From Alphaproteobacteria bacterium (GTDB lineage Bacteria; Pseudomonadota; Alphaproteobacteria; SHVV01): DNA of 64,000 nt. The notes beneath the pieces are model-generated. The model was not told where the DNA came from. It saw only the letters and a program-made list of their open reading frames with translations, and made no database searches. This document shows positions 17,030 through 20,717 of this stretch, one piece after another. The stretch's first letter is position 1, and each line of letters starts with the position of its first letter. The position numbers and the translations under genes were made by a program. The stretch is from assembly GCA_016869275.1 (NCBI GenBank), contig VGEO01000002.1, positions 1 through 64,000 on the forward strand. Reading direction: 5' to 3'.

Positions 17030-17410
17030 GTGACCGACGTAAAAATGGAGCGTCCCGGCGACAACAAAGCCGACGAACCGCTCTTCTACACCAAGCACGT
17101 GTTTTGCTGCCTGAACGAGCGGCCGGCGGGTCATCCGCGCGGCTGCTGCAAAGAAAAAGGCGCCGAAGCGCTGCGCAATTACATGAAAAAGAAGGTTGGC
17201 GACCTCAAGCTCGACAAGGTCCGCATCAACCAGGCGCTTTGTCTCGACCGCTGTGAACTCGGCCCCAACCTCGTCATCTATCCCGAAGGGACGTGGTACA
17301 CATTCAAGTCCGAGGCCGATATCGACGAGATCATCAAGTCCCACTTGATCGATGGAAAACGGGTCACACGCTTGATGCTGAAAGTCGACCAAAAGCTCCC
17401 CAACGCCTAA
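17030..17410 (+). CDS. (2Fe-2S) ferredoxin domain-containing protein
   Basis: GTG start with GGAGGG upstream; FYTKHVFCCLNERPAGHPRGCC, ...QALCLDRCELGPNLVIYPEG. Confidence 0.85.
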   Translation: MTDVKMERPGDNKADEPLFYTKHVFCCLNERPAGHPRGCCKEKGAEALRNYMKKKVGDLKLDKVRINQALCLDRCELGPNLVIYPEGTWYTFKSEADIDEIIKSHLIDGKRVTRLMLKVDQKLPNA

Positions 17411-17429
17411 GCCCGCGCCGTCTTCCGCA

Positions 17430-18767
17430 ACGACTATTTTCGCCCTGGCGAGTGCACCGGGGCGGGGCGGCATTGCCGTCATTCGCGTCTCGGGCGTCGG
17501 TGCCGGTGCCGCCGTTACCGCACTGACGGGTCGTGCGCCGGACGCACCCCGCTATGCGCGCCGCGCGCGCTTGCGGCGCGCCGACGGCAGCCCGCTCGAC
17601 GATGGGTTGGTCCTCTGGTTCCCGGGACCGGCAAGCTACACCGGCGAAGACGTCGCCGAGTTTCACGTCCACGGCGGTGTCGCCGTCGTGAACGCTGTGC
17701 TCGAGGCGCTGGCCGCGCTGCCGGACCACCGACTAGCGCAGCCGGGCGAGTTCACGCGCCGGGCTTTCGCCAACGGCAAGCTCGACCTTACCCAGGCCGA
17801 AGCGATCGCCGACCTGGTTCAGGCCGAAACCGACGCGCAACGGCGCCAGGCCCTGCGTCAACTCGGGGGCGAACTCCGCAAGCACTATGACCGCTGGAAA
17901 AACGACCTCGTCCGGGCCCTCGCTCACCTCGAGGCGCTAATCGACTTTCCGGACGAAGACCTCCCCGAGGCTACTTTTGAGGCGCTTCGCGCGAGTCTCG
18001 ATCGACTCGAACGCTCGATTGGCGAGCACCTTGATGACAACCGGCGGGGAGAGCGGCTCCGGTCGGGGTTCACGATCGCGATCGTGGGGCCGGCTAACGC
18101 CGGAAAATCCAGTCTCATCAATGTTGTAGCCCAAAGGGACCTCGCCATTACGGCGCCCACCCCGGGGACGACGCGCGATATTCTCGAAGCCCATCTCGAT
18201 ATCGATGGCCTTCCGGTCACGATAGTCGACACAGCCGGAATCCGCGACTCGGCCGACGCTGTCGAGCAAGAGGGAGTACGTCGAGCCTTTGGACGCGCCG
18301 AAACGGCGGACCTGAAGGTGCTGGTTCTCGACGCAACGACCGACGCCGTTCCGCCGCCGGCGCTCGCGCCGATCGTCGACCGGAACACGATCATCGTTCT
18401 GAATAAGATCGACCTCGTACCAACACCGCGCGCAGTCAGTCCGAGCGGCCCGTCTTCCCGTCTTGTCAGCGTCCGAACCGGCGAAGGGATGAGCGAGTTG
18501 ATCGCCCTGCTCGGGGGGTCGATCGCCGAACGCTATGGCCTTCGCGAAGCGCCGACCCTCACCCGCGCCCGCCACCGACGCGCGCTCGAGGCGGCCCGCG
18601 GCGCTATATCGCGCGCGCACGCGGGGTTGTCGGGGCGGGCGACACTGCCGGAGCTACCGGCGGAAGATCTACGCCTTGCCGTCCGTCACTTAGGCGAGAT
18701 AACCGGTGAGGTTGGGGTCGAAGAAATACTAGATATGGTTTTCAAAGATTTTTGTATCGGAAAGTAG
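17430..18767 (+). CDS. mnmE: tRNA modification GTPase MnmE (start codon non-canonical or uncertain; frame open from 17382)
   Basis: TTIFALASAPGRGGIAVIRVSG (conserved MnmE N-terminus) through GPANAGKSSLIN, DTAGIRDSADAVEQEGV and C-terminal CIGK. The ORF track begins only at an internal TTG (17571). Confidence 0.93.
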   Translation, partial: TTIFALASAPGRGGIAVIRVSGVGAGAAVTALTGRAPDAPRYARRARLRRADGSPLDDGLVLWFPGPASYTGEDVAEFHVHGGVAVVNAVLEALAALPDHRLAQPGEFTRRAFANGKLDLTQAEAIADLVQAETDAQRRQALRQLGGELRKHYDRWKNDLVRALAHLEALIDFPDEDLPEATFEALRASLDRLERSIGEHLDDNRRGERLRSGFTIAIVGPANAGKSSLINVVAQRDLAITAPTPGTTRDILEAHLDIDGLPVTIVDTAGIRDSADAVEQEGVRRAFGRAETADLKVLVLDATTDAVPPPALAPIVDRNTIIVLNKIDLVPTPRAVSPSGPSSRLVSVRTGEGMSELIALLGGSIAERYGLREAPTLTRARHRRALEAARGAISRAHAGLSGRATLPELPAEDLRLAVRHLGEITGEVGVEEILDMVFKDFCIGK

Positions 18768-18848: not shown

Positions 18849-20717
18849 ATGCGCACACAGTACGACGTCATCGTAATCGGCGGCGGCCACGCCGGCTGCG
18901 AGGCCGCGGCAGCAGCGGCCCGGGTTGGCGCGCAGACACTGCTCGTCACCCACAAATTCGCCACCATCGGCGAGATGTCGTGCAACCCGGCGATCGGGGG
19001 CCTTGCAAAAGGCCACTTGGTCCGCGAGATCGACGCGCTCGACGGGCTGATGGCGCGGGTTATCGATCAGGCCGGAATTCAGTTCCGCATCCTCAATCGT
19101 CGGAAAGGGCCGGCGGTTCGGGGACCGCGGGCCCAAGCGGATCGCGCCCTTTATCGCGCGGCCATGCAAGCGGCGATTATCGGCGTTCCCGGGCTCGATG
19201 TCGTCGAATCGGCGGCCGAGGACCTGATCGTGGCGGGCGGGCGCGTCACCGCCGTCGCGCTCGGAAACGGACGGATGATCGCGGCCGGGGCGGTCGTCCT
19301 CACGACCGGGACTTTCCTCCGCGGCCTCATCCACATGGGCGAGGAAAAAACAGCGGCTGGCCGGGTCGGCGAGAAACCCGCGGTAGGCTTGGCACTCACG
19401 CTCGAATCGTTACGCTTCCGGCTCGGTCGCTTGAAGACTGGAACACCACCTCGACTAGACGGTCGAACGATCGACTGGGCCGGCCTTGACGTCCAGCCGG
19501 GGGACGATCCTCCCCCGCCCTTCTCGTTCCTGACGACGCGTATCACGACACCTCAAATCGCCTGCCACATCACGGGAACGACCCCGGCGGTCCATAAACT
19601 TATCCGCGCCAATCTTCACCGCGCGCCCATGTATTCGGGCCAGATCCAGAGCACGGGACCGCGCTACTGCCCGTCGATCGAGGACAAAGTCGTACGGTTC
19701 GCCGATCGCGAACGTCACCAGATTTTCCTTGAACCAGAAGGACTTAACGACGATACCGTTTATCCGAACGGGATTTCGACCTCGCTACCCCGCGAGGTCC
19801 AGGCCGCGGTCGTGGCGGGTATCCCGGGTCTCGAACGGGCCGTCATCAAGCGTCCCGGATATGCGATCGAATACGACTACGTCGATCCGCGCGAGCTCTA
19901 TCCTAGCCTCGAAACCAAGCGGGTCGCGGGTCTCTATTTCGCCGGCCAGATCAATGGAACGACCGGATACGAGGAAGCGGCTGGCCAAGGGCTGATGGCG
20001 GGCATCAACGCGGCCAGGGCGGTCGCGGGCGGAAGCCCGATGATTCTTGACCGGGCGGATGCCTATATCGGAGTCTTGATCGACGACCTCGTCACGAAGG
20101 GAACGCGCGAGCCCTATCGAATGTTCACCTCGCGCGCCGAATACCGGCTTTCGCTCCGGGCCGACAACGCCGACCAGCGCTTGACTGAAAAAGGCGTAGC
20201 CGCCGGGTGCGTCGGGTCCGAGCGCGCGCAGCGGAACCGCGAGAAGGTCACGTCCTTGGCCCGCGCCCGCTCGCTCATGAGCGATCTGTATCTGACCCCG
20301 AGCGAGGCGCGTCGGATCGGCCTGCAGGTCAATCTCGACGGCGTCCGGCGCTCAGCTCTCGAACTTCTTGCGGCCCCCGGCGTCACGTGGGCAACCCTGG
20401 CGTCGATCTGGCCGGTCGCGGCAACGTTCGCTCCCGATATCGCCGAGCAGATCGAAATCGATGCGCTTTATGCCGGCTACCTCGAACGTCAGGCGGCCGA
20501 CATCCGGGCGTTTCGGCGCGATGAGGACCTCACGCTGCCTTGGGACTTGGACTACGCCGGGATCGGCGGACTGTCGGCCGAGATTCGACTGAAGCTCGAC
20601 GAAGCTCGGCCGACAACGCTGGGCGCCGCCGCGCGAATTTCAGGCGTGACCCCCGCGGCCGTTACAGCCTTGCTTGCCCACGTAAAAAAGCGCACCGTCG
20701 TGGGAGCTACGGCCTGA
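18849..20717 (+). CDS. mnmG: tRNA uridine-5-carboxymethylaminomethyl modification enzyme MnmG
   Basis: 622 aa; [48 protein letters not shown]. Confidence 0.97.

Follow-up and report, generated by a model that had tools for sequence, protein, structure and literature searches.

All bacterial start codons are said to carry a central U (T in the DNA). A study of start codons observed rare switches from AUG to CUG and AUU and leaves ACG unmentioned in its text (PMC5622118), and no native bacterial ACG start was found in the literature searched, which is weak evidence as subscription papers are thinly covered. The closest described systems are the non-canonical start of infC, the termination-reinitiation sites in which a start codon overlaps the stop codon of an upstream gene, and the ACG starts of plant plastids and viruses. 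Here the housekeeping gene mnmE, encoding the tRNA modification GTPase MnmE, was analysed in a window of 64,000 nucleotides (nt), the whole stretch considered, from an uncultured alphaproteobacterium of the lineage SHVV01 (assembly GCA_016869275.1, contig VGEO01000002.1). No ATG, GTG or TTG precedes the conserved N-terminus of this gene, and its translation probably begins at an ACG (17403-17405), coupled to the termination of the ferredoxin gene directly upstream.

Absence of a canonical start codon from mnmE

The comparison within the order covered three genomes, all of one genus (the window, L001, and the congeners L002 and L003), which are fragmented draft assemblies, and all of the evidence is comparative. 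The mnmE frame of the window is opened by a TGA (17379-17381), with a further in-frame TGA at 17373, and its codons from 17382 read AAG TCG ACC AAA AGC TCC CCA ACG CCT AAG CCC GCG CCG TCT TCC GCA ACG ACT ATT TTC. No ATG, GTG or TTG was observed in this frame between TGA 17379-17381 and TTG 17571, the first canonical codon, which lies inside the conserved domain, 46 codons past a conserved Thr (ACT 17433) from which codons are counted below. Both points had been raised by the first-pass annotation, and the coordinates and codons were confirmed, with the congeners in agreement: L003, whose protein is 88% identical to the window MnmE over the available part, has no canonical start back to the same upstream TGA, and L002, with 60% identity, has none within 46 codons. 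The features concerned are as follows.

17030-17410, + strand: ferredoxin gene (thioredoxin-like 2Fe-2S), directly 5' of mnmE, with a GTG start, a GGAGG Shine-Dalgarno and the stop TAA at 17408-17410
17373-17381, + strand: two in-frame TGA (17373, 17379) closing the mnmE frame on its 5' side, both present in L003 and not in L002
17403-18767, + strand: mnmE coding frame from the putative start to the stop TAG, 454 amino acids, named from profile matches
17403-17405, + strand: ACG, the putative mnmE start on comparative grounds, at codon -10, overlapping the ferredoxin stop; ACG in both congeners
17430-17432, + strand: ACG at codon -1, unconserved (AAG in L003, GCG in L002)
17433-17438, + strand: conserved Thr-Ile (ACT ATT) from the homologue alignment, the ATT being the rival AUU start
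17571-17573, + strand: TTG, the first canonical start-like codon in frame, within the conserved domain; TTC in L003, not a start
18849-20717, + strand: mnmG, the partner subunit, with an ATG start and no Shine-Dalgarno, named from its sequence and the gene order

Among 190 distinct alphaproteobacterial mnmE loci, a canonical start was observed at most 20 codons upstream of the conserved Thr in 185; in the other five, namely the three genus members, L043 and L316, none occurs within 25 codons, a distribution from which the absence is judged to exceed chance. The first-pass annotation had pointed to an ATG or GTG at the homologous place in relatives as the sign that would speak against it; distant relatives do have one, whereas both congeners are without. 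In L043 the nearest canonical start is an ATG at codon -33, which would mean that the N-terminus is unusually long or that this gene, too, has an odd start. In L316, which belongs to another family (G068:C73:11270 region), mnmE is without a canonical start and nothing at the ferredoxin stop resembles a start apart from a GTA, which overlaps it as GTAG; this may represent a second, independent non-canonical mnmE start, or an error, as it comes from a single genome.

The gene is taken to be intact in the genus, and the profile matches of the window indicate full-length MnmE. The window protein scores 562 bits against the equivalog model NF003661 of NCBIfam (cut-off 380), the TrmE_N, helical and GTPase domains (PF10396, PF12631 and PF01926) all exceed their cut-offs, and the C-terminus reads FCIGK, containing the C-terminal CIGK of MnmE/TrmE. 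The TrmE_N profile alignment begins, at profile position 1, on the Ile of TIFAL. Only one mnmE was found in the genome of the window, the remaining matches being Der-like and other GTPases. When the window is set against L003, five changes are found in codons 0-15, all of them at third positions (a nonsynonymous rate, dN, of 0), and the ratio of nonsynonymous to synonymous divergence (dN/dS) is 0.18 over codons 0-46, close to the 0.13 of the rest of mnmE. The confinement of changes to third positions and the dN/dS of 0.18 show that the N-terminus is translated and that mnmE, from the conserved Thr on, is under purifying selection.

ACG 17403 as the candidate start codon

A 1-nt length difference in L002, just 5' of the ACG and the ferredoxin stop, alters the frame relation between ferredoxin and mnmE, and the mnmE start is therefore placed downstream of this difference, so that it should lie between about codon -14 and codon +1. 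The ACG at 17403 is the sole productive near-cognate codon 5' of the Thr that is common to all three species, standing in frame at codon -10, exactly 30 nt upstream of the Thr, in each of them, where the background frequency of ACG in this region is 1.5% per codon. Its overlap with the ferredoxin stop extends over 8 nt in the window (AACGCCTAA, ACGCCTAA) and in L003 (ACGCCTAG), and over 1 nt in L002 (TGACG), so that the stop/start overlap of 1 or 4 nt that marks termination-reinitiation is found in L002 and not in the other two. Of 134 loci, 41 have ferredoxin immediately 5' of mnmE, and the canonical starts there are found from -4 nt onward, counted from the ferredoxin stop. In the genus, the RNA is least structured around a point 24 nt 5' of the Thr, the ACG standing at 30 nt, whereas in relatives whose starts lie 3-18 nt 5' of the Thr that point is found at 12 to 6 nt. 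Initiation at ACG 17403-17405, coupled to ferredoxin termination, is the reading favoured by these comparisons, with a rough probability of 0.58.

Several observations weigh against this codon. The ACG lacks a Shine-Dalgarno in all three species, and the low RNA structure near it is not unique, ranking 14, 23 and 31 among 159 loci. Because this codon doubles as part of the ferredoxin coding sequence in the window and in L003, L002 is the only independent test of its conservation. The nine codons that follow it (-9 to -1) display slightly non-coding-like usage, codon -10 stands at the far end of the interval, -1 to -9, in which starts usually fall, and a middle C in the start codon is unprecedented (PMC4611024).

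The suggestion of a rare start codon in the first-pass annotation is upheld as the best reading, probably at neither of the two codons named there, ACG 17430 and ATT 17436; ACG 17403 was absent from its list of candidates. ACG 17430 was rejected as a start, since it is not conserved in the congeners, including the nearest, L003.

Proposed mechanism and initiation machinery

With initiation at ACG 17403, ribosomes ending ferredoxin would terminate at TAA 17408-17410, overlapping the ACG, and the same ribosomes would restart at 17403-17405 using the ordinary initiator tRNA-fMet (CAU), without a Shine-Dalgarno and aided by weakly structured RNA. The product would be MnmE with a 10-residue N-terminal tail, fMet-PKPAPSSAT-TIFAL..., and its output would be expected to be low and tied to ferredoxin translation. 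We infer the use of ACG, the termination-reinitiation and the low ferredoxin-coupled output alike.

The initiator tRNA has the anticodon CAU and the same anticodon stem as 25 copies sampled from the class, initiation factor 3 (IF3) is present, and so is the anti-Shine-Dalgarno CCTCC; a lineage-specific change was observed in none of the three, and therefore the cause is probably the local context and not an altered machinery. The A29-U41 stem pair, considered as a possible change in the initiator tRNA, was rejected, being common to all 25 class copies sampled. That this is a natural, conserved ACG start without a central U, tolerated since ribosomes restart at the overlapping ferredoxin stop and so escape start-codon proofreading, is proposed tentatively and falls somewhat short of even odds. 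If true, the ACG would be a natural, genus-conserved exception to the central-U rule of bacterial starts, and would allow one to test whether stop-coupled restarting relaxes the choice of start codon. Gene callers restricted to ATG, GTG and TTG would trim at least 46 residues from MnmE in this lineage.

Alternative explanations

The main rival to ACG initiation is that translation starts at the codon of the conserved Ile (ATT 17436), as an IF3-sensitive AUU/AUC start of the infC type, giving an MnmE that begins fMet-FALASAPGRGG, which is judged unlikely. Both AUU and AUC are recognised as natural start codons in bacteria (PMC4611024), infC begins with ATC in the same genus and sthA apparently with ATT, and in L002 the ATC is preceded, at a distance of 5 nt, by a GGAG (-5.8 kcal/mol). 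The codon put forward in the first-pass annotation is indeed kept, as ATT in the window and L003 and as ATC in L002, but this conservation is explained because it encodes an Ile that is invariant anyway (188 of 190 homologues), and a start there would lose the Thr present in 187 of the 190, which the genus retains under three different third bases (ACT, ACC, ACG). All 185 canonical starts lie 5' of the Thr, the window and L003 have no Shine-Dalgarno at the Ile codon, and the site, 25-32 nt beyond the ferredoxin stop, borders strongly folded RNA. The pairing of a central U with a Shine-Dalgarno that characterises infC-type starts is found at this codon in L002 only, while the favoured ACG has neither.

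A programmed ribosomal frameshift near the ferredoxin stop, fusing ferredoxin to MnmE, seems very unlikely, even though the two genes overlap or nearly do so, mnmE has no canonical start of its own, and runs of A5 (L002) and C4 (L001 and L003) precede the ferredoxin stop. To make the fusion, ribosomes would have to shift by +1 in the window and in L003 but by -1 in L002, and because the direction differs between species a conserved programmed frameshift is improbable, contrary to the ferredoxin-linked recoding considered in the first-pass annotation. The junction shows no evident slippery heptamer of the classical type and no stimulatory signal, and is less structured than its shuffles (z +2.1); ferredoxin and MnmE are separately encoded in relatives. 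Readthrough of the upstream stops was also rejected, as the two TGA of the window and L003 are absent from L002.

Poorer still is the possibility that mnmE is decaying, or is made only in an N-terminally truncated form from TTG 17571 or another internal start. TTG 17571 is the earliest codon that a gene caller would accept, but strong purifying selection acts 5' of it, and since it reads TTC in L003, and the earliest ATG, GTG or TTG of L002 mnmE is at codon +59, an internal start is unconserved and was rejected; the frame is, moreover, unbroken to its end, well above the model cut-off and the only mnmE in the genome. A start codon lost through sequencing or assembly error, conceivable in draft assemblies and suspected in the first-pass annotation, can hardly be entertained, as three separate species assemblies share the lack with the flanking ferredoxin and mnmE frames intact.

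Other non-canonical starts and the upstream ferredoxin

A wider survey of starts covered 289 coding pairs of G000 and G002, and overlooks any gene in which a canonical codon occurs internally, close to the true start; within these limits no further ACG start was found, and one AUU candidate was detected, sthA. This sthA-like gene for a Si-specific NAD(P) transhydrogenase (L148:3585-4997, + strand, at about 62.1-63.5 kb of G000:C1; L168 in the congener G002) matches NF003585 at 648 bits, and ATG, GTG and TTG are absent before its conserved N-terminus in both species. The context TAGGGGGTTGTC-ATT points to AUU as the start, preceded by a Shine-Dalgarno (AGGGGG). The infC genes (L273, L272) have an ATC start after GGAGGTACTT in both species, with the Shine-Dalgarno GGAGG. 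As for the ferredoxin of the window, NCBIfam 2Fe-2S ferredoxin models score under their curated cut-offs, and no Pfam match to it was found.

Comparison with known systems

The AUU, AUC and AUA starts of infC, the gene of IF3, resemble the mnmE case in being conserved non-canonical starts of a translation-related housekeeping gene, and differ in having a strong Shine-Dalgarno and a codon with a central U, neither of which the mnmE ACG possesses. Plant plastid and viral ACG codons likewise open real genes; the viral ones rely on the eukaryotic scanning ribosome, unlike bacterial mnmE, and we know of no editing enzyme or editing evidence for mnmE in this genus. The plastid ACG is edited to AUG (PMC9845219), which differs from what is proposed here. 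Termination-reinitiation sites (TGATG, ATGA) share with mnmE a start that overlaps the stop of a co-directed upstream gene, and the 1-nt overlap of TGATG coupling sites is the layout seen in the TGACG of L002 (PMC6728339, PMC10666635), but their start is ATG, whereas mnmE has ACG and, in the window and L003, an 8-nt overlap. The mnmE genes of L011, L014 and L123, from other alphaproteobacteria with ferredoxin upstream, have the same gene order and starts 4 nt inside the ferredoxin stop, and differ from those of the genus in starting with ATG or GTG.
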